Positions 33,419 to 49,549 of a stretch of 49,549 bases of DNA are shown here, piece by piece. The notes under the pieces are model-generated. The model saw only the letters and a program-made list of their open reading frames with translations. It was not told the origin of the DNA and made no database searches. Made by a program: the position numbers and the translations under genes. The stretch's first letter is position 1, and every line of letters starts with the position of its first letter. Source of the DNA: a virus; the IMG/VR virus record IMGVR_UViG_3300046780_001007, positions 1-49,549 of that record; one strand, 5' to 3'.

Positions 33419-33670
33419 TTAGCCTCCCAGCACGTCAATGAGCTGCTGGATGACGCGGGCCTTCCAAGGGAAGGTGGTGATGAGCCGGTCACGCGAGGCG
33501 CGCAGTTCGTCGAGCACCACCGCGCGATCGTCGGTGTCGCACGGCATCGACGCCATGACGTTGAGTGCGCTGCCGTGGTCATCGGTGACCGCGTACGGCT
33601 TGAAGCACTCATGGTTCGGATTGTCAGATGGACGCGTTTTGACGAGATGAAAGATCACAGCACACCTCAC
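33419..33670 (-). CDS. Small hypothetical protein
   Basis: 83 residues with an N-terminal strand (MRCAVIFHLVKTRP) and a helical C-terminal half (DDRAVVLDELRASRDRLITTFPWKARVIQQLIDVL). It overlaps the beta-clamp stop by 4 bases. No family recognised; position suggests a replication or clamp-associated function. Confidence 0.5.
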   Translation of the reverse strand: MRCAVIFHLVKTRPSDNPNHECFKPYAVTDDHGSALNVMASMPCDTDDRAVVLDELRASRDRLITTFPWKARVIQQLIDVLGG

Positions 33671-34818
33671 AGGTAAGAGAGCATCAGGACAGCCATGCTC
33701 GCGGACTCGTCGGCGGCGCCGACGATGAGCATGGGATCGCGTACGCCGCCCATCTTGAGCAGCACGGTGTCGTCGGCGAAGGTCTGCAGCGCCTCGACGA
33801 AGAACTGAGGGTTCACACCGAAGACAAGGCCGTCGCCTTCGAACGAGTCGAGCGCGACCTCTTCGACCGCCGCGCCCTTCGACGCGGTCTCGCTCGAGAT
33901 GAAGATGGAGCCGGCCGGCAGCAGCTCACAGCGGACCGAAGCGCCGCGCTCTGCGGCCACCAGCGAGACTCGTTTGAGCGCCTCGATCAGCTCTTCGCGT
34001 CCGATGGCCGCGGTGCGCGGCGCGACGTCGACCTTCTTGCCGCCGTCGTATGGCTGCATCAGGTTTTGGTACGGCACGAAGTTCGAGCCGGCGCTCTTCG
34101 AGCTGAGCGTCACGCCGTCCCATTCGAAGTGCATGTAGCCTTCGAGGCCGCCATTCACCGACAGGTCGACAGGGCAGTCGGCGAGCTCCTCGCACAGCTT
34201 CTTGACGTCGGAGATGGCGCGGGCGTGGATGTGGTCGGCGCCCCAGTCGCCGTCGCGCTCGACCTTCGCCGATGCAAACGCCAGCCGCTTCGAATCGGTG
34301 GCCACGCACTTCAGAGCGCCAGCGCTGTGCTCGACGCGCACGCAGGCGATGAAGGCCCGGCTCTCGTCGGCCGACTCGCGTGCGTAGGCAGCGCCGCTGA
34401 TGAGCTTCGCCAGCAGGCCAGACTGGACGCGCAAGCGTGGCGCCGCCTTCTCGGGCTGCGGGATGACCGGATAGTCATCCGCACTGAGACACGGCACTTT
34501 GAAGTGCGACTTGCCTGACTTGATCTCGAGGCGGTTGTCTTTCACCGCGAGCTTGATGGCCACGCCGAGGGGGAGGGCGCGCACGATGTCTGAGAACTGA
34601 CGCGCCGACACGCAGCACACGCCAGGCTTCTTCACCTCGCCCGTTGTCGCCGCCGTGACGCTCAGCGTGAGGTCCGTTCCGAACGCCGTCACCGTGCCGT
34701 TCTTCTCGGCGCTCAGCTTCACGTGCGTGAGAATGGTCATCGGCGACTTCGGCGCGCAGGCCGGAACGGCTCGCGACAACACCTTCGCCAGGTCCTTCTT
34801 TTCGATCGATAACTCCAT
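33667..34818 (-). CDS. dnaN: DNA polymerase III beta sliding clamp
   Basis: 383 residues (ATG at 34818; a GTG one codon earlier is possible). The three-domain DnaN pattern is clear: MELSIEKKDLAKVLSRAVPACAPKSPMTILTHVKLSA, then LSADDYPVIPQPEK at the first domain's end, GAAYARESADESRAFIACVRVEHSAGALKCVATDSKRLAFA in domain 2, and a terminal PMLIVGAADESASMAVLMLSYL. It tethers polymerase and repair proteins to DNA. It is unusual in a phage of this size and suggests clamp replacement. It is coupled to the helicase-methyltransferase gene. Confidence 0.9.
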   Translation of the reverse strand: MELSIEKKDLAKVLSRAVPACAPKSPMTILTHVKLSAEKNGTVTAFGTDLTLSVTAATTGEVKKPGVCCVSARQFSDIVRALPLGVAIKLAVKDNRLEIKSGKSHFKVPCLSADDYPVIPQPEKAAPRLRVQSGLLAKLISGAAYARESADESRAFIACVRVEHSAGALKCVATDSKRLAFASAKVERDGDWGADHIHARAISDVKKLCEELADCPVDLSVNGGLEGYMHFEWDGVTLSSKSAGSNFVPYQNLMQPYDGGKKVDVAPRTAAIGREELIEALKRVSLVAAERGASVRCELLPAGSIFISSETASKGAAVEEVALDSFEGDGLVFGVNPQFFVEALQTFADDTVLLKMGGVRDPMLIVGAADESASMAVLMLSYL

Positions 34819-37103
34819 CACTCTGCCCCTTCCGCAAACGACATGGTCTGTTGGCCCGCGCTGGCGGCCTGGTGCAGGTTCTTCACGGCCTGCTCGTAGT
34901 AAGAGCGCTTCAGCTCAGCGCCGATGAAGCGGCGGCCTTGCTCGAGCGCGACGTGCCCTTCAGAGCCGATGCCGGCGAAGGGCGAGAGCACGGTGTCCTT
35001 CGGGTTGCTCCACAGCTGGATGCAACGCCGGATGACTTCCAGCTGCAGCGGTGCGATGTGCCGCTCGTCGTCGTGCTCGCGCGCGCTGCGATACTGCAGC
35101 GTGTCGCTCGGGTTGATGTCCATCCATACCGGCGATGCGTACCGCTGCCACAGCGACACCGGGAACTCGTCGGCTGTGTGCGCGATCGGCTCTTCGTTCG
35201 GGTCAGGCTTGCGCATCGTGACCACGTAGTCGGCGATGCCCTGACGCGAGATGGAGCTGTCTTTCTTGATCTGCTTGTGCAGCAGGCCGATGGCCTTCGT
35301 ACGCTGCATCGCCGTGACGGGGTCTTTCCAGATGCAGACCTCGCTGTGGTAGATGAAGCCCTTCGCCTGGAACGAGCGAATCAGGTCATCGCGGAAGTTG
35401 CGCAGGCCGATGTAGCCGTCGCGTTCCTTCGACGTGGGCAGCTGCATGCAGTGCGCCGAGACGAGCCGGCCGGGCTTGAGCACGCGCAGCAGCTCGTCGA
35501 CGAGGAACCCGAAGTGCGCGAAGAACTCTTCGTACGAACGCGAGTTGCCCATGTCGCGCGGGCTGTTGCTGTAGGTGTACAGGCTAGAGAAGGGCGGCGA
35601 GAAGACGCTGTAGCCGACGCTCTTGTCAGGCAGCCCCTTGAGCACCTCGACGCAGTCGCCTTGGTACACCGCAAACCTGTCAGCTAGCTCTTGGTCGAGA
35701 ATGCTCACCTTGTTGCCTCCCTTGATCGGACTGCGCATCCGCACACGCGGCGCGTACTCGTTCGTCTCGCGCGTCGAGCCGCGTACGGCAGAGCGCACGG
35801 CCTCGCTGGCCTCGCGTGACAACTCTTCGGCCATGGCCTTAGCGTCACGCTCCTTGCGCTTCAGATTCTCGATGACGGCGCCTTCGAGCTCGCTCGCGAA
35901 GATGTGCACGATGCACTCTCGCAGCTGACCGAATCGCCAGATGCGCCGCACCGCTTGATAGAAGGCCTCGTAGCTGTCCGTGACGCCGACGAAAGCCATG
36001 TGTGCGCAGAACTGGAAGTTCATTCCAAACCCGCAGATCGAACTCTTGCTGACGAGCACGCGCGCTTCGCCGCTGACGAACTGAGCGATGGCCGATTCCT
36101 TCTCCTCGGTGCTCATCGAGCCAGTCACCTCGACTGCTCCGTTGATGGACTTTGTGAGCGCGGTGCTCTCGGCGTTCAGGTCGGTCCATACGATCCAGCG
36201 TTCGGCGCTCGCGTTCACCATGGCGGCGCACTGCTCGACGCGTGCACCCAACGAACCCTTGCGCGCCGCGCGCCGCTCCATCAGCGACTTGGCCGGCATC
36301 GCGAACAGCAGCCCGCTCTCGCGCACCGACTCGGGGTCAGCCTCGATCACGTGATGCTCGACCGACAGCTCGGGAAGCACGTAGGCGCTGGCGTCGTATC
36401 CGAGGTCAGCGGGCGAGCGCACGAGCGCTGCCCAGCTGGCGACGAACTTCCAGAACACTTGGCGCGCGTGGCCTTTGAGACGCCACACCTGCGTCTCGCC
36501 GCCATCGTGGCAGAAGAACTCGGCGAGCATCTCAGCGCGCGTGCAGATGCCAAGGAACTCGGCGTGCGTGCCTAGCTCGGTGTAGTCGTTCGGCGACGGC
36601 GTGGCCGTGCAGCAGAGCTTGAAGGCCGTGTCCGCACAGGCGATGCAGAGCGCCTGGAACGTCTTGGCCTGGTAGTGCTTGATGATGCTGGACTCGTCGA
36701 GCACGACGCCGCCAAAGACGCTCATGTCGAACAGGTGCAGCCGATCGTAGTTCGTGATGTACACGCCAGGCTCGTTCGGCGTGACCTCGCTGCCGTCCTT
36801 CACCACCGTGATGCTGATGAGCACCCTGAGCGCTTCGTCGCGCGTCTGCGTAGCCACAGCGAGCGGCGCGAAGATGAGCACGGGCTTGCCTGTGTGCTTC
36901 GCCACGCGCCAAGCCCACTCGGCTTGCATGCGGCTCTTGCCGAGGCCCGTGTCAGCGAAGATGGCGGCGCGCCCGCGGCGCAGCGCGAAGCTCACGAGGT
37001 CGTTCTGAAACGGAAAGCTCAGCTTCGACTTGCACACGGCATCGGCGATGCCGGTGGGCACCATGTGCACAAGCTTGCCGGCGACGAACGCCTCGTAGCT
37101 CAT
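34818..37103 (-). CDS. SNF2/DEAD-type helicase fused to N4-cytosine/N6-adenine DNA methyltransferase
   Basis: 761 residues from the ATG at 37103 (GGAGG upstream). Residues 1-430 are a superfamily 2 helicase: Walker A DTGLGKS (51-57), motif II DESS (136-139), motif III TATPS (166-170), motif VI QAVRRIWRFGQ (383-393). Residues about 470-750 are a beta-class amino-methyltransferase: SPPF (502-505), then the SAM-binding SPFAGIGSEG near 705. SPPF suggests N4-cytosine specificity. Related fusions occur in other phages. It may modify phage DNA against restriction or act like a restriction remodelling enzyme. Confidence 0.85.
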   Translation of the reverse strand: MSYEAFVAGKLVHMVPTGIADAVCKSKLSFPFQNDLVSFALRRGRAAIFADTGLGKSRMQAEWAWRVAKHTGKPVLIFAPLAVATQTRDEALRVLISITVVKDGSEVTPNEPGVYITNYDRLHLFDMSVFGGVVLDESSIIKHYQAKTFQALCIACADTAFKLCCTATPSPNDYTELGTHAEFLGICTRAEMLAEFFCHDGGETQVWRLKGHARQVFWKFVASWAALVRSPADLGYDASAYVLPELSVEHHVIEADPESVRESGLLFAMPAKSLMERRAARKGSLGARVEQCAAMVNASAERWIVWTDLNAESTALTKSINGAVEVTGSMSTEEKESAIAQFVSGEARVLVSKSSICGFGMNFQFCAHMAFVGVTDSYEAFYQAVRRIWRFGQLRECIVHIFASELEGAVIENLKRKERDAKAMAEELSREASEAVRSAVRGSTRETNEYAPRVRMRSPIKGGNKVSILDQELADRFAVYQGDCVEVLKGLPDKSVGYSVFSPPFSSLYTYSNSPRDMGNSRSYEEFFAHFGFLVDELLRVLKPGRLVSAHCMQLPTSKERDGYIGLRNFRDDLIRSFQAKGFIYHSEVCIWKDPVTAMQRTKAIGLLHKQIKKDSSISRQGIADYVVTMRKPDPNEEPIAHTADEFPVSLWQRYASPVWMDINPSDTLQYRSAREHDDERHIAPLQLEVIRRCIQLWSNPKDTVLSPFAGIGSEGHVALEQGRRFIGAELKRSYYEQAVKNLHQAASAGQQTMSFAEGAE

Positions 37104-38698: not shown

Positions 38699-39166
38699 AT
38701 GCGAGCTGTGGCAGACGCTATTGACTACAAGGAGTTCGGTGACCGACTCCGCCTGGAAATAAAAAAGCGAGGGTGGACTCAGCCGCAGTTCGCCCAAGAG
38801 ATCGCTTTGGCGAGCGGCGGGCCGCCGCCGTCTGGTCCCACGGTGAGCAAATGGCTTACAGGGAAGGCTTTCCCGCGCCTCTACATCCAGACCATCAGCG
38901 CGGTTTTGGGCTTGTCCTCAGACGAGCTCGTCAAGCCGTCGCTGGTGTCTGCGCAACCGCTGGATGCGCGCGCAAAGGACATCCTCCAGGCTGCGCGCGA
39001 ACGCGGATACGAAGATGCGCAGGTCGCCAAGATAGAGCTGATTCTTCGGGAGCCGGCCGGGCACTACGGAACCAAGCAGCTAGATTTGCCGGCGAGCGCG
39101 GTGAAGGACTCCGGGGTGCAGCCGAAGCGCAAGGTCGCGCAGCGCAAGCGCCGTCGGGCTATTTAG
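38699..39166 (+). CDS. XRE-family repressor-like protein
   Basis: 155 residues. FGDRLRLEIKKRGWTQPQFAQEIALASGGPPPSGPTVSKWLTGKAFPRLYIQTISAVLGLSSDEL is an HTH_3 with an enlarged loop between helices 2 and 3. A helical C-terminus (AKDILQAARERGYEDAQVAKIELILREP) ends in a Lys/Arg tail. There is no LexA-type peptidase, so induction would not be by RecA-stimulated cleavage. It is divergent from the Cro-like gene, the CI position. Confidence 0.75.
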   Translation: MRAVADAIDYKEFGDRLRLEIKKRGWTQPQFAQEIALASGGPPPSGPTVSKWLTGKAFPRLYIQTISAVLGLSSDELVKPSLVSAQPLDARAKDILQAARERGYEDAQVAKIELILREPAGHYGTKQLDLPASAVKDSGVQPKRKVAQRKRRRAI

Positions 39167-42714: not shown

Positions 42715-43145
42715 TGGAAAAGACGTGTCCGAAGTGCGAGCTGGTGAAGCCGGCTGACGCTTTCCACCGAAGCAGGTCGAACAAAGATGGCCTGGATCGG
42801 ACGTGCAAGCTGTGCGCGCGCCTGCGCAAGGCAGCGCAGTACGAGCGCGACGGCGAGAAGATGCTGGCGCGCAACCAAGCATGGAAAGATCGCGCGCGCG
42901 GACACATCAGCGAATACAACCGTTCCCACTTCGAACGCAACCGAATCAAGTACAAGGCTCGCCAGGCGGTCAACGCCGCCGTGAAGCGCGGACAGCTGAC
43001 AAGGCCTGCCGTCTGCAACCGATGCCGTGAGACCGCGCTGCTCTACGGACACCATCACAGCTACGCGCCCGAGCACTGGCTCGACGTCGAGTGGCTTTGC
43101 AAGCGCTGCCATCTTCGCCACCACGCACAGGAGAAATCCGCATGA
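42714..43145 (+). CDS. HNH-like zinc protein
   Basis: 143 residues. An N-terminal zinc knuckle (CPKCELVKPADAFHRSRSNKDGLDRTCKLC) is joined by a basic helix to a C-terminal CNRCRETALLYGHHHSYAPEHWLDVEWLCKRCHLRHH, a zinc-coordinated HNH-type core (two CxxC pairs, GHH, H). It may nick or cut DNA, or be a homing-type element. It shares both modules with the gene at 46727, on the other side of sbcDC. It is coupled to SbcD by an ATGA overlap. Confidence 0.65.
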   Translation: MEKTCPKCELVKPADAFHRSRSNKDGLDRTCKLCARLRKAAQYERDGEKMLARNQAWKDRARGHISEYNRSHFERNRIKYKARQAVNAAVKRGQLTRPAVCNRCRETALLYGHHHSYAPEHWLDVEWLCKRCHLRHHAQEKSA

Positions 43146-44329
43146 GACGCGCCGCCATCATCGCAGACAGTCATTTTGACGAGCACAGCAGGTTTGAAGA
43201 ATGCGTGCACGTGCATCGCTGGATCGCCGCGGACATCGCCGCGCGCGGCGTCGACGTCGTTATTCACACAGGAGATGTGTACGAACGCAAGAGCACGCCG
43301 AAGGAGCGCGCTGCAGCAGCAGACTTCTTCGAGCAAGTCGCCAAGGTCGCGCCTGTGGTTATCGTGAAAGGAAATCACGAGGCACGCGGCGACTTGCCGC
43401 TGCTCGCTCGGCTCGAGACCGAGCACCCGGTGTATGTGGTGGAAGGCGCTGAAGTCGTGCTGACCGGCGGCTTCGCGATCGGCTGCCTCGCCTGGCCGTC
43501 GAAGGCTTCCATCCTCGCCATGTCCGGCGCGCAGTCGCAGGCCGAAGGCGAGCTCGTGGCGGCCGATGCCTTGCGCAACGTCATCCGCGGTCTCGGCCAG
43601 GGCATGGCCATCTTCGACGGGCCGCGCATCCTAGCGGCGCACGCGATGGTGCGTGGATCGACGACGAGCGTAGGGCAGCCGCTCGTGGGCTGCGACTTCG
43701 AGGTCGGCGTCGAAGACTTGAACCTTGCCGATGCCAGCTTCGTCGCGCTCGGCCACATCCACAAGGGCCAGCACTGGTCGCCAGGTACGCTCTCGCCATC
43801 GGGTGACCTACCGACGATCGTCTATCCCGGCAGCCCCCGTCGCACCACGTTCGGCGAAGTCGAGCGCAAATGCTACGTGCTCGCTACGTTCGACGGCAAC
43901 GTCTGCACAGAGTGGGAGCTTATCGAGACGCCTTGCGCGCCGATGCTTCTGCTCGAAGACGAGTGGGGCCAGGTGTTCGACGATGACCCGCGCGTAGGCT
44001 GGCGCGTTGGCGACGAGCCTGCTCGCGCGACGCTCGAAGGCGCCGAGGTCCGTTTCCGTTACACCGTTGACGCCGACCGGCGCGATGAGGCGCGCGAAGC
44101 AGCCGACAAGATCGCGCGCGGTCTACTGGCCGCAGGCGCGATCGAAGTGAAGGTCGAGCCTATCGTCAACCCGACGAACTCCGCGCGCGCGCCAGAAGTC
44201 GCGCTTGCGACAACGACTGCCGACAAGCTCGCCGCGTTGTGGAAGGCGCGTGGCACCACTCCCGAGCCCGAGCGCGCGGGCGAGCTCTTCCGCAAGGCCA
44301 ACGAACTGGAGAGCGTCGATGCGCTTTGA
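43142..44329 (+). CDS. sbcD: SbcD/Mre11-like nuclease subunit
   Basis: 395 residues from the ATG at 43142. All five phosphoesterase motifs are present: Asp9/His11 (ADSHFD), Asp45 (HTGDVYE), Asn78/His79 (KGNHEA), His167 (LAAHAM) and His205/His207 (LGHIHKG). With SbcC it forms an ATP-dependent exo/endonuclease that processes DNA ends, hairpins and protein-blocked ends, and supplies single strands for annealing. The stop overlaps sbcC by 11 bases. Confidence 0.9.
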   Translation: MRRAAIIADSHFDEHSRFEECVHVHRWIAADIAARGVDVVIHTGDVYERKSTPKERAAAADFFEQVAKVAPVVIVKGNHEARGDLPLLARLETEHPVYVVEGAEVVLTGGFAIGCLAWPSKASILAMSGAQSQAEGELVAADALRNVIRGLGQGMAIFDGPRILAAHAMVRGSTTSVGQPLVGCDFEVGVEDLNLADASFVALGHIHKGQHWSPGTLSPSGDLPTIVYPGSPRRTTFGEVERKCYVLATFDGNVCTEWELIETPCAPMLLLEDEWGQVFDDDPRVGWRVGDEPARATLEGAEVRFRYTVDADRRDEAREAADKIARGLLAAGAIEVKVEPIVNPTNSARAPEVALATTTADKLAALWKARGTTPEPERAGELFRKANELESVDAL

Positions 44330-46730
44330 ACGGATCAAGCTGCGCGGCATGGCCACGTTCAAGGGTGACGTCGACATCGACCTCACCAAGATCGAAGGTC
44401 AGCTCATCGCGCTCACGGGCCGCAATGGCGAGGGCAAGAGCACGTTGCTCGAGCTGCTGCCCGGCGCGCTCTTCCGCCAGTGCGCCACGCGCGGCAGCTT
44501 GCAAGACAACGCGCTTGCTCGCGACAGCTTCGTCGAGGTCACCGTCTGCAACGGCCAGCGCTACACCGTGCGCCAGCTCGTGGACGGTATCTCGGGTAAG
44601 AGCGAGTGCGCGATCTTGAACGAGGCTGGCGAACCGCTCATCGCCAGCGCCAAGGTACGCGAGGCCGACGCATGGGTCGCCGCGCACTTCCCGCCGGCAT
44701 CTGTTCTCTACACCTCGTCCATCGCTGTGCAGGAACGGCGCGGCTTGCTCGACCTCAAAGAGAGCGAGCGCAAGGCCGTCGTGCTGCGTGCGCTCGGCAT
44801 CGAGCGGCTCGAGACCATGGCGCAGTCGGCGCGCGAGCGGGCCAAAGCGGCGCAAGCTGAAGTCGACCTGACTCGGGCGCGTCTGCGTGACCTGCCCGAG
44901 GTCGATCTCACCGTGCTTCGATGCGATGTCGCTATCGCGGCATCGCAAGCCGGTTTGGCCGAGCTTGCCGCTAAAGAAGCGCGGCGAGCGCTGGAACGGG
45001 CGAAGGCGGCGAGCTCCGACGCAGCCAAGGCCTACGAGCTTGCCGAGCAACGGAAGGCCGCGGCGGCACGCCTGGCGGCAGCAGAGACGGCGCTCGCGGA
45101 CATCGAACGGCGACTCGCGAATAACCGCCAGCTGCTGGGCGAGGCCGACGCGGTGCGGGCTGCTGAAGCGAGCGCCAAGCAGCTCGACGGTATGCTCGAA
45201 GCTGCGCGGGCCAAGGTGGCTGATGCCGACGTCGCGCATCGCGAAGTGAATCTGGCTGTGCATCAGGCGGGCGCGGCCACCGAGCGTTGCTTGCGCGACC
45301 TGGCCAAGGTGCGCGAGCAGTCTGCCGGCGTCGAGCGGCGATTGAAAGACGCGTCCGCGATCAGAGCAGCTGAGTCACGTGTCGGCATGCTGAAGACAGC
45401 GCTGCATAACGTCGAGGAAGCTGTCGTCAAGCTAGAGCAGTCAAAGGCTCGTGACCAGTCGCTGCTAGTGTCTGCGCAAGGCGTGAGAATCGCTGGGCTG
45501 CGCAGCGCTCTTGACGATATCTCAATGGGTGATTCTGACCCGGTCGGCGTTGCCGAAGGCGCGCTCGTAAATGACACCAGGCTTGAGCGTGACCAGCTGG
45601 CCGCGCCAGTGCGCATCGCTGAAGCGCAAACCGCGATAGAGTCCGAACAGCGCGCTGCGGCGCGTCTGCGCGGCGACTTGTCACAAGCCGAGCGCCTCGC
45701 TGCTCGCGCTGGTGACATCGCGCAGGCGGAAGCCGAGCAAGCCAGCTTGGATGCCGAGCGCCTTGTGCTCGAAGCCAAGCACGCTGAGCTCCAGGCGTAC
45801 GAGCAGGCCGAGCGCACGAGCCAGGCGGTTTCCGCCAACGCGGCCAACGCCGCGCGCGCAACGGTCACAGCGCTCGAAGGAGAGCGCGAGGCGCTCAAGC
45901 CGCTGCTCGCCAAGGTGAAGCCGCTCGAGCAGGCCGAAGCGCGCGTTGAAGAACTGACCGCGTCGTACGGCCCGGCAAACGCGACGGTTCAGTCGGCACG
46001 CGTCGAACTGGGCTTGCTTCCCGAAGCCGACTTCCAGGGCATGCCCGACACGCGCGACCTCGATCGCGCTGTGCAGGCTGCTGAAGGCGCTGAGCACACT
46101 GCGCGCGAAGCGCTAGGGCGGGCACGAGACGACGTCGAGCGCGGCGCAAGGACCGCGCATCAACGCGAGCGGCTCGAAGGCGAACTCGTCGGCCTCGAAG
46201 CAACGCTCGCTGACTGGACGCGTCTAGCCCAAGACCTGGGGCGGGACGGTCTGCAAGCGATGGAGATCGACGCGTGCCTTCCCGAGGTCAACGCCATCGC
46301 GAACGACCTGCTGCACAGCTGCAGCGGCCCTCGTTACACCGTCGAGTTGCGCACCGATCGGCTCAGCGCCGATGGCAAGCGCACGCTCGAAGGCTTGCCC
46401 ATCCGTGTCATCGACACGCAGCACGGGCGCGACAGCGACGTCGAAGCGCTCTCACCTGGTCAGCGCTCGATCATCGGCGAGGCTATCGCGCTTGCCTTCA
46501 CCACGCTCGCTTGTCGCCGGGCTGGCACGCAAGGGTGCACGTTAGTGCGTGACGAAGCGGCGGCAGCGATAGACGCTGAAGGGTCAGCGGCGTACGTGGC
46601 AATGCTGAGACGAGCTGCCAAGCAAATCGGTGCCGACAAAATCTTGCTGGTGTCGCACGTTCCAGAGGTTCAGGCGCTCTGCGATGCGCGCATCCACGTC
46701 GAAAACGGCACCGCGAGGGTTGTGTCGTGA
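44319..46730 (+). CDS. sbcC: SbcC/Rad50-like ATPase without zinc hook
   Basis: 803 residues from the ATG at 44319. Walker A is GRNGEGKST (34-42). The C-terminal lobe has the ABC signature LSPGQRS and a Walker B-type LVRDEAAAAID. The 550 residues between are Ala/Glu/Arg-rich coiled coil. The coil apex, where Rad50 proteins carry a CxxC zinc hook, has no CxxC anywhere. The protein is also shorter than bacterial SbcC (about 1,050). Dimerisation must therefore use another interface. Partner of the upstream SbcD. Confidence 0.88.
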   Translation: MRFERIKLRGMATFKGDVDIDLTKIEGQLIALTGRNGEGKSTLLELLPGALFRQCATRGSLQDNALARDSFVEVTVCNGQRYTVRQLVDGISGKSECAILNEAGEPLIASAKVREADAWVAAHFPPASVLYTSSIAVQERRGLLDLKESERKAVVLRALGIERLETMAQSARERAKAAQAEVDLTRARLRDLPEVDLTVLRCDVAIAASQAGLAELAAKEARRALERAKAASSDAAKAYELAEQRKAAAARLAAAETALADIERRLANNRQLLGEADAVRAAEASAKQLDGMLEAARAKVADADVAHREVNLAVHQAGAATERCLRDLAKVREQSAGVERRLKDASAIRAAESRVGMLKTALHNVEEAVVKLEQSKARDQSLLVSAQGVRIAGLRSALDDISMGDSDPVGVAEGALVNDTRLERDQLAAPVRIAEAQTAIESEQRAAARLRGDLSQAERLAARAGDIAQAEAEQASLDAERLVLEAKHAELQAYEQAERTSQAVSANAANAARATVTALEGEREALKPLLAKVKPLEQAEARVEELTASYGPANATVQSARVELGLLPEADFQGMPDTRDLDRAVQAAEGAEHTAREALGRARDDVERGARTAHQRERLEGELVGLEATLADWTRLAQDLGRDGLQAMEIDACLPEVNAIANDLLHSCSGPRYTVELRTDRLSADGKRTLEGLPIRVIDTQHGRDSDVEALSPGQRSIIGEAIALAFTTLACRRAGTQGCTLVRDEAAAAIDAEGSAAYVAMLRRAAKQIGADKILLVSHVPEVQALCDARIHVENGTARVVS

Positions 46731-47296
46731 AGACGTGCACCGCGTGCCGCGTTCCGAAGGCGCTCACGGATTTCTCGCCTGACTCGCAAAACGCGGACGG
46801 GCGCAAAGGTCAGTGCCGAGCGTGCAGGACGCAACGTCAGCGAGAGTTGCGCGCGGCCAACCCTGAACGTGACCGGGCATGGGTTCGCGCGAACGCGGAG
46901 CGCGTGCTCGGCTACAAGCGCGGCTACCGCGTGCGCAACGCCGACAAGCTGCGCGTTGACGCAAGGGAGCGCGGGCGCGCGGCGCGGGCTACCGAAGAAG
47001 GTGCGCAGCGCCTCAGAGAGATCGTCAGCGCATACACGCGGCGGCATAGCAAGAAGCTGAGCGCTGCTGCGAAGGCCCGGCGTAGCGTTGACCCAACGAA
47101 GTTCCGCGCGCGCGAGGCCGTGCACAACGCGCTCAAACGCGGGCGGCTCGTGCGGCCCGACGCGTGCGTCCGTTGCGGGCGGCCCAGCCGCAAAATCCAC
47201 GGCCACCACGAAGACTACTCGAAGCCGCTCGATGTCACGTGGCTCTGCCCTCGCTGCCACAAAACTCGCCATGCCGAAATGGAGGCTGCCCAGTGA
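46727..47296 (+). CDS. HNH-like zinc protein, second copy
   Basis: 189 residues from a GTG overlapping the sbcC stop (GTGA). An N-terminal CTACRVPKALTDFSPDSQNADGRKGQCRACRTQRQR knuckle is followed by a long basic helical region (about 35-135). The C-terminus is CVRCGRPSRKIHGHHEDYSKPLDVTWLCPRCHKTRHAEM, an HNH-type zinc core. Same architecture as the gene at 42714, with a longer linker; duplicated or acquired twice. Confidence 0.65.
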   Translation: MKTCTACRVPKALTDFSPDSQNADGRKGQCRACRTQRQRELRAANPERDRAWVRANAERVLGYKRGYRVRNADKLRVDARERGRAARATEEGAQRLREIVSAYTRRHSKKLSAAAKARRSVDPTKFRAREAVHNALKRGRLVRPDACVRCGRPSRKIHGHHEDYSKPLDVTWLCPRCHKTRHAEMEAAQ

Positions 47297-48072: not shown

Positions 48073-48227
48073 TGGCAGGCGAGCTCGACGAGCTGGTCGA
48101 GTACGAAGGCCGGCGCGTGCCGTACTGGTGGGCCGAGCGCGTGGCCATCGCGATGGAAAGCGGCGCCACACAGCAAGAAGCGCAGCGGACAGCGAACGAA
48201 GAACTGAAGCGACGCAAGGAGAAGTAG
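48072..48227 (+). CDS. Tiny charged protein
   Basis: 51 residues from a GTG overlapping the previous stop: LDELVEYEGRRVPYWWAERVAIAMESGATQQEAQRTANEELKRRKEK. Helical and coupled. No family recognised. Confidence 0.5.
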   Translation: MAGELDELVEYEGRRVPYWWAERVAIAMESGATQQEAQRTANEELKRRKEK

Positions 48228-48229
48228 CG

Positions 48230-48652
48230 ATGCCGACGATGCAAGAGCCGAGCAAGCCCGCGGTGTTGATGGTGCTGAGGCGCCGCAGCGATAGCGTCTA
48301 CGTGCGCCTTGACGCGCGCGTCACCGGCGTGCAGCTGCCGCACCACTTGCTCGGGCAAGAAGCGGTCATCTTGCAGGTGGTGGTGCCAGCGAACGCGCCG
48401 TTCCCCATAACCGACCTGCAGCTGACGGCGCACTGCTTGAGCTGCACGCTCTCGTTCCATGGCAAGCCGTTCTTCTGCGTCGTGCCTTGGACAGCCGTCG
48501 AGATCATCGCGGACGGCGAGGGTAAGGGTCAGGCCTGGGAGAAGAGCGCGCAGTCGATCATCGACTCTCAATGGGCGAAGCGCGCTGCGCCGCCCGTGGG
48601 CGGCTCCACGCCGCACCCGTCTGAGCGCTCCTACCTTCGGCGGGTGAAGTGA
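48230..48652 (+). CDS. SspB-like ClpXP adaptor candidate
   Basis: 140 residues. VYVRLDARVTGVQLPHHLLGQEAVILQVVVP, ITDLQLTAHCLSCTLSFHGKPFFCVVPWTAVEIIADGEGKGQ follows the SspB beta-barrel order, including the GVQ.P step, the VP..AV.. strand and the acidic G turn. A flexible linker then ends in SERSYLRRVK, close to the C-terminal ClpX-binding LRVVK motif of bacterial SspB. SspB tethers ssrA- or RseA-tagged substrates to ClpXP. A phage copy could redirect host proteolysis. Assigned by fold-order and tail similarity only. Confidence 0.55.
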   Translation: MPTMQEPSKPAVLMVLRRRSDSVYVRLDARVTGVQLPHHLLGQEAVILQVVVPANAPFPITDLQLTAHCLSCTLSFHGKPFFCVVPWTAVEIIADGEGKGQAWEKSAQSIIDSQWAKRAAPPVGGSTPHPSERSYLRRVK

Positions 48653-48825: not shown

Positions 48826-49016
48826 CCGAGAAGTGGTACCGCGTGGAGAACACGCGCGCCTTCATGGAAGCGCGCGGCGTGCGCTCGGTCGGCGTTCACT
48901 CGCCTAAGCACATCAAGCGCATCCCTTGGCCGGTGTGCTCCCGCTGCGGACTGCTCTACCTGAAGAACGAGGCGACCGCGCGCGAGGTGCGCAAGGCCTG
49001 CGTGGTGGAAGAATGA
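48816..49016 (+). CDS. Small protein with Cys pair, unknown
   Basis: 66 residues: WYRVENTRAFMEARGVRSVGVHSPKHIKRIPWPVCSRCGLLYLKNEATAREVRKACVVEE. One CxxC and another Cys near the end could form a zinc ribbon. It overlaps the methyltransferase start. Confidence 0.5.
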   Translation: MAVAEKWYRVENTRAFMEARGVRSVGVHSPKHIKRIPWPVCSRCGLLYLKNEATAREVRKACVVEE

Positions 49017-49549
49017 TGTCAATCGGCTCGCTCTTCAGCGGCATCGGGGGGCTTGAGCTCGGGCTAGAGCAGTCGGGCATCGGCCGCACGGTTTGGCAGG
49101 TGGAGAAGTGCGCGAAGTGTCGCGCCGTTCTTGCGGCGCACTGGCCGCATGTTGAAAGGTTCGAAAATGTCTGCACCGTCGGGCGAGAGTCTCTTCGAGC
49201 TGTCGACCTCATTTGCGGCGGCTTCCCTTGCCAAGACGTCAGCAGCGCGGGCAAGCGAGCTGGCCTCGCTGGTGCTCGAAGCGGCCTTTGGTTTGAGTTC
49301 CGGCGCGTTGTCGACGAACTCCGGCCTTCATGGGTTGTGGTCGAGAATGTGGCGAGCGGGGCGAGTCGATGGGTGGATGCTGTGCGCGAGTCGCTGGAAC
49401 AGCTCGGCTACGCAACTCTACCGATCCCGCTTAGCGCAGGCGATTGCGGCGCGCCCCACGAGCGCGCACGCGTTTTCATCGTCGGGCATGCTGCCCACGC
49501 TGACGGCGTCGAGCTACGGCAGCAACATGGGGGGGGGGGCAGCCGGGCG
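49013..49549 (+). CDS. C5 cytosine DNA methyltransferase, N-terminal part (continues at window start)
   Basis: Begins ATGATG overlapping the previous stop. Motif I is SLFSGIGGLELGLEQ, motif IV is GGFPCQDVSS with the catalytic Cys of PCQ, motif VI is VVVENV, motif VIII is GAPHERARVFIVG. The frame runs to the last base of the window and continues at position 15, ending at 269 with motif X. It methylates cytosine in host-like recognition sites, probably against restriction. An 11-G run at 49529-49539 lies in the variable region. Confidence 0.88.
   Translation, partial: MMSIGSLFSGIGGLELGLEQSGIGRTVWQVEKCAKCRAVLAAHWPHVERFENVCTVGRESLRAVDLICGGFPCQDVSSAGKRAGLAGARSGLWFEFRRVVDELRPSWVVVENVASGASRWVDAVRESLEQLGYATLPIPLSAGDCGAPHERARVFIVGHAAHADGVELRQQHGGGGSRA
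49536..49549. repeat. 14-base overlap with the window start
   Basis: GGGGCAGCCGGGCG is identical to positions 1-14. Joining through it keeps the methyltransferase frame open, so it reflects a circular assembly rather than a biological terminal repeat. Confidence 0.85.

Follow-up and report, generated by a model that had tools for sequence, protein, structure and literature searches.

The window analyzed here, a stretch of 49,549 nucleotides that covers the whole of the IMG/VR virus record IMGVR_UViG_3300046780_001007, carries on its plus strand, at 48230..48652, a gene of the SspB family that we call P0001. Its product counts 140 residues, and the protein described in a first-pass annotation of this DNA is the exact translation of that interval. 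A ribosome-binding site, AAGGAG (48216..48221, plus strand), stands 8 nt before the ATG and the preceding gene has its stop at 48227, two features that support the start at 48230. The alternative longer in-frame reading frame, from 47966, would run into this preceding gene. By codon usage, P0001 reads as coding.

The surrounding phage genome, about 49.5 kb in length, encodes Major_capside and Phage_portal_3 proteins as well as an integrase, and its tail genes look contractile from their lengths and order. We found that positions 1-14 of the contig are identical to positions 49536-49549, and that a C5 DNA methylase gene starting at 49013 reads across the end junction in frame to position 269. 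Once rejoined across the contig ends, the methylase comprises 263 residues with a C-terminal motif that we take to be the usual one, and the integrase (488-1738) lies after it. The map of this contig is probably closed and the genome complete and circularly permuted. Given the 14-bp overlap and the methylase restored in frame, the computed placement of P0001 is inside the phage genome and not at a junction with the host.

Upstream of P0001 and on the same strand are found a putative repressor with a helix-turn-helix (HTH) motif (38708-39166), an SbcD-like gene (43142-44329), an SbcC-like gene (44319-46730), an HNH-type gene named by eye from its sequence (46727-47296) and further small genes; other small genes follow P0001 (48649-49016, plus strand). 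No sspA adjoins P0001 among these neighbouring genes, whereas housekeeping sspB loci such as L189 and L115 display an adjacent sspA together with cytochrome or ribosomal-protein genes. Elsewhere in the window, the minus-strand gene at 34818-37103 encodes a 761-residue fusion of a helicase (Helicase_C, with weak SNF2/ResIII matches) and an N6/N4 DNA methylase domain, and is adjoined by a gene for a phage-encoded DnaN sliding clamp (33667-34818).

One would nevertheless wonder whether P0001 is host DNA caught at the edge of the contig, or even an artefact of annotation. The contig ends 0.9 kb away from the gene, and several IMG/VR contigs bearing sspB are, or resemble, host flanks: L189 has cytochrome genes and sspA beside sspB, and L190-L192 are similar by position. 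However, the overlapping ends, the split methylase that regains its normal C-terminus and is followed by the integrase, and a neighbourhood made of small phage-type genes, SbcC/SbcD and HNH but devoid of sspA all speak against such an origin, which we regard as hardly credible.

The assignment to the SspB family comes from several comparisons. Against the Pfam SspB family (PF04386), P0001 scored 29.4 bits, above the gathering cut-off of 27, and a six-frame search with Pfam SspB gave 28.3 bits. Profiles were also built from 70 bacterial SspBs, P0001 being left out, for three groups designated group III, gamma/beta and alpha. They scored P0001 at 43.7, 32.1 and 14.7 bits, respectively, while the maxima reached by 5000 shuffles of the protein were 11.7, 7.0 and 9.2 bits and the next-highest unrelated reading frame of the window obtained 2.2, 2.8 and 6.1 bits. 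We then defined as conserved the 17 positions that are each shared by at least 75% of the gamma/beta and group III SspBs; P0001 keeps 13 of them, including three in its tail, and the invariant residues P37, F76, G78, P86 and L136 are all present. The NCBIfam SspB models matched weakly, two of them up to the last residue (P0001 25-140 with 27-143 of 143 positions, and 24-140 with 26-144 of 144), and the cut-off of the equivalog for the ClpXP specificity-enhancing factor (PRK11798) was missed, with 26 bits at best versus 191. By these computed measures of homology, P0001 is a member of the SspB family, and not an ortholog at the level of the NCBIfam equivalog.

The protein can be divided into four parts, all encoded on the plus strand. 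A short N-terminal helix (residues 9-18, 48254..48283), the element by which SspBs pair into homodimers, is predicted by the AlphaFold2 model, and the alignments place it 4 residues short of that of E. coli SspB. It precedes a beta-rich SspB core with six predicted strands (residues 23-103, 48296..48538), in which the conserved residues D28, A29, V34, P37, L48, F76, G78, P86, A89 and G100 are located. Then come a linker predicted from the pLDDT values to be disordered (residues 104-133, 48539..48628) and a ClpX-docking-type tail, SYLRRVK (residues 134-140, 48629..48649), matching the bacterial L-R-x-V-K. The first-pass annotation had pointed to GVQLPHHLL, FFCVVPWTAVEII and the C-terminal SYLRRVK, which are all found in the translation. 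Its description of these elements as following the SspB strand order is fair for the predicted beta core, but the acidic turn that it added corresponds just to ADGEG and is weak.

The AlphaFold2 model has a mean pLDDT of 58, with blocks of the core at 58-80, and the C-terminal 42 residues (99-140) fall under 50; these residues are thus predicted to be disordered, in keeping with the flexible linker proposed at the outset. A structure search with this model returned every solved SspB at ranks 1-19, and the next fold appeared at an E-value of 0.2. The structures of the E. coli/H. influenzae type were matched at E-values of 5e-6 to 9e-5, and the alpha-proteobacterial structures 2qas, 2qaz and 2nys were also within these ranks. 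The alignment underlying the model contained six SspB relatives, so this computed fold class is not independent of the sequence evidence. A model built from the single sequence reached a pLDDT of 38, was uninformative and was discarded. Altogether, the Pfam score above its cut-off, the profiles that exceed the shuffles, the 13 conserved positions out of 17 and the retrieval of the SspB fold in first place by a model of moderate quality agree with the SspB-like identity put forward in the first-pass annotation; its reading of the protein as an SspB with a ClpX-binding-like tail is supported at the level of the sequence.

The tail deserves particular attention. In bacterial SspB, it docks on the zinc-binding domain of ClpX (PMC8138137; PMC12373786). 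The 41 gamma/beta and group III tails that we sampled follow the motif L-[RKT]-[VLIF]-[VIL]-K, in which the last residue is in some cases D, E, S or T. P0001, which terminates with YLRRVK, keeps the L, R, V and K of bacterial SspB tails, as the near-match first noticed had implied, and differs by an arginine in the third-last place, which is occupied by V, L, I or F in the gamma/beta and group III bacteria. An arginine is also found there in the bacterial-type SspBs of L190-L192, whose tails read LTRIK; this residue is thus tolerated in other SspBs, but in P0001 it could lower the affinity for ClpX. An ending of the form L[RKT]x[VI]K is observed for P0001 alone among the 71 called genes and the 717 six-frame reading frames, while the composition leads one to expect about 0.006 in 71 genes. 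The L, V and K of this computed motif have been retained despite a strongly diverged core, and docking on ClpX is the likely function of such a tail.

No relative of P0001 was detected by tblastn among 50,697 phage records, by a search of plasmids or, as a confirmed match, by a pattern scan of viral contigs, and no PHROG matched at E-values up to 10, PHROG 8945 included. The sole match of a scan with the group III alignment, L187, turned out to be a spurious frame opposite another gene. The relatives of the phage by terminase do not exceed 53% (L003) and belong to unrelated hosts, and no SspB was found in the 29 related virus records that were checked.

By sequence, P0001 looks most similar to the bacterial group III SspBs (L163-L185). 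It shares with them a four-residue gap in the N-terminal helix relative to E. coli SspB, the C of FFCVVP, the W of GQAW (G-x-x-W) and a comparable tail (LR[VLI][VI]K in group III, LRRVK in P0001), with an identity of 23-30% over the full alignment. It is set apart from them by its shorter linker, by insertions around residues 46-65 and by the arginine in the third-last place. Identity to the set of gamma/beta type amounts to 21-26%, and to about 25% in the structural alignment with the E. coli/H. influenzae SspBs (1ox9, 1ou8, 1yfn, 8et3). P0001 has in common with the latter the fold, the D, V, P, L, F, G, P, A and G positions, the disordered linker and L-R-x-V-K, but its N-terminal helix and its linker are shorter and it has no sspA neighbour. 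In the phylogenetic analysis P0001 forms a long branch that the best tree sets beside the gamma/beta SspBs without firm support; neither a clade with group III (p-AU 0.35) nor a clade with the other phage SspBs (p-AU 0.22) is rejected, and the trees leave its placement unsettled.

These data bear on the idea that P0001 would be a spare housekeeping adaptor, namely a host sspB captured by the phage and devoid of any phage-specific role. The SspB family is widespread in Pseudomonadota, with a match in 190 of 200 genomes, and other phages carry copies that are near to those of hosts, as illustrated by phage pf16, whose SspB is 53% identical to that of E. coli. On the other hand, no close relative of P0001 was found, either bacterial or phage, and an identity of 23-30% to the most similar group together with the long branch indicates that no recent capture took place from the sampled lineages. 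We consider this origin quite improbable.

It had also been stated that no well-described phage counterpart was known to the annotator. This does not hold as far as the genes are concerned: gp18 of pf16 was modelled as an SspB in 2017 (PMC5587285), a 2023 study placed gp039 of Erwinia phage RAY in the cytoplasm (PMC10299810), PHROG 8945 bears the name SspB-like, several viral models are named SspB in BFVD, and we found SspB in phiKZ gp232 and its relatives, LucasX, SNUABM_54, Phabio and SH-Ab 15599, in all dozens of large phages. The statement is right in that the searchable literature yielded no demonstrated function, biochemical or otherwise, and no substrate for any phage SspB. The known proteins (pf16, RAY, phiKZ, LucasX, SNUABM_54; PHROG 8945 and 25970) share with P0001 the Pfam family, or are placed by PHROG, and most of them, like P0001, retain a ClpX-docking-like tail: LRVVK in pf16, LTVVK in RAY and L193, LTIVK in SNUABM_54. 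In phiKZ gp232 (L112:1471-2379), the docking-like KLTVIK is extended by GGKK and by a long additional region, and the LucasX protein (L113:1453-2019) ends with DFRARRKPSS, which recalls the alpha-proteobacterial DAFRKK. By sequence search they are not the closest relatives of P0001, which is distant from every phage SspB found. Among the matches listed, the genuine phage carriers have genomes of 143 kb or larger, whereas the P0001 phage has 49.5 kb and encodes an integrase. P0001 is thus a divergent new case of a system that large phages were known to carry, rather than a system of a new kind.

Several records were set aside as sources of phage SspB: AGRM01000002 is bacterial DNA or mislabelled, as are the Acinetobacter MD-2021a contigs, where the order rpsI-sspA-sspB is seen, and the S.Kent record of 2.7 kb probably falls in the same category. 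L115, AGRM01000002 and OR851148 are filed as phage with an apparently bacterial chromosomal sspB, and such entries inflate the counts of phage SspBs.

Judging from its sequence, P0001 is a divergent phage SspB that most likely delivers chosen substrates to the host ClpXP, a reading that we hold with good, though not full, confidence. The folded beta core would grip a peptide on the substrate, the flexible linker would bridge the distance between core and tail, and the C-terminal LRRVK would dock on the zinc-binding N-domain of the host ClpX; the substrates picked in this way would be handed to ClpXP and degraded. Binding to ClpX and delivery are what we infer here, and the same is true of the substrates and of the timing. 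P0001 is probably expressed early or from the lysogen, since it shares a same-strand arm with the HTH regulator, SbcCD, the DNA methylase and the integrase, and it would redirect the host ClpXP to host or phage proteins.

A parallel can be drawn with SPO1 Gp53 and phage ClpS, phage proteins that, like P0001 in our proposal, steer a Clp protease of the host; these target ClpC or ClpA, whereas P0001 is proposed for ClpX, and we know of no kinship between them and SspB. The main rival to delivery is a decoy or inhibitor: P0001 would dock on ClpX, deliver nothing useful, displace the host SspB and other clients of the N-domain, and thereby shield phage proteins. Supporting this idea, the tail is retained while the substrate-binding core is strongly diverged, SPO1 Gp53 provides the precedent of an adaptor-like phage protein that dysregulates ClpCP (PMC6873191), and a competitive role has been suggested for the SspB of pf16 (PMC5587285). 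However, most of the conserved positions are kept (the 13 of 17 that include the tail), which would be needless for a decoy acting purely through its tail. We therefore judge such a role rather unlikely, and favour delivery.

As for the proteins that P0001 may deliver, type I restriction subunits are degraded by ClpXP (PMC12707154) and are one plausible class of targets among many. No phage tmRNA was found, and a search of the phage proteins for motifs like ssrA, the type of peptide that SspB binds, gave AAND matches at chance level and nothing more. The HTH protein at 38708-39166 (plus strand) ends with RKRRRAI, which closely resembles the MuA degron for ClpX, RRKKAI (PMC8138137). Four basic residues followed by AI at a C-terminus are expected from composition about 8e-5 times in 71 genes, for a pattern that was picked post hoc, and the HTH protein is a possible substrate of ClpXP on the basis of this ending. 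MuA-type tags, however, are read by ClpX itself. A further hypothesis would be that P0001 takes part in the lysis-lysogeny decision by bringing ClpXP to a phage regulator such as this HTH protein. Though we find this very improbable, the stability of a phage repressor would, if it were true, hinge on an adaptor made by the phage.

With P0001, phage-encoded SspB now reaches a small, integrase-encoding phage, and does so with a divergent type of SspB. The ClpX-docking tail endures while the SspB core changes, so that the question of which proteins phages send to ClpXP arises for temperate phages too. P0001 probably gives this phage a means to influence the choice of the proteins that its host destroys by ClpXP.
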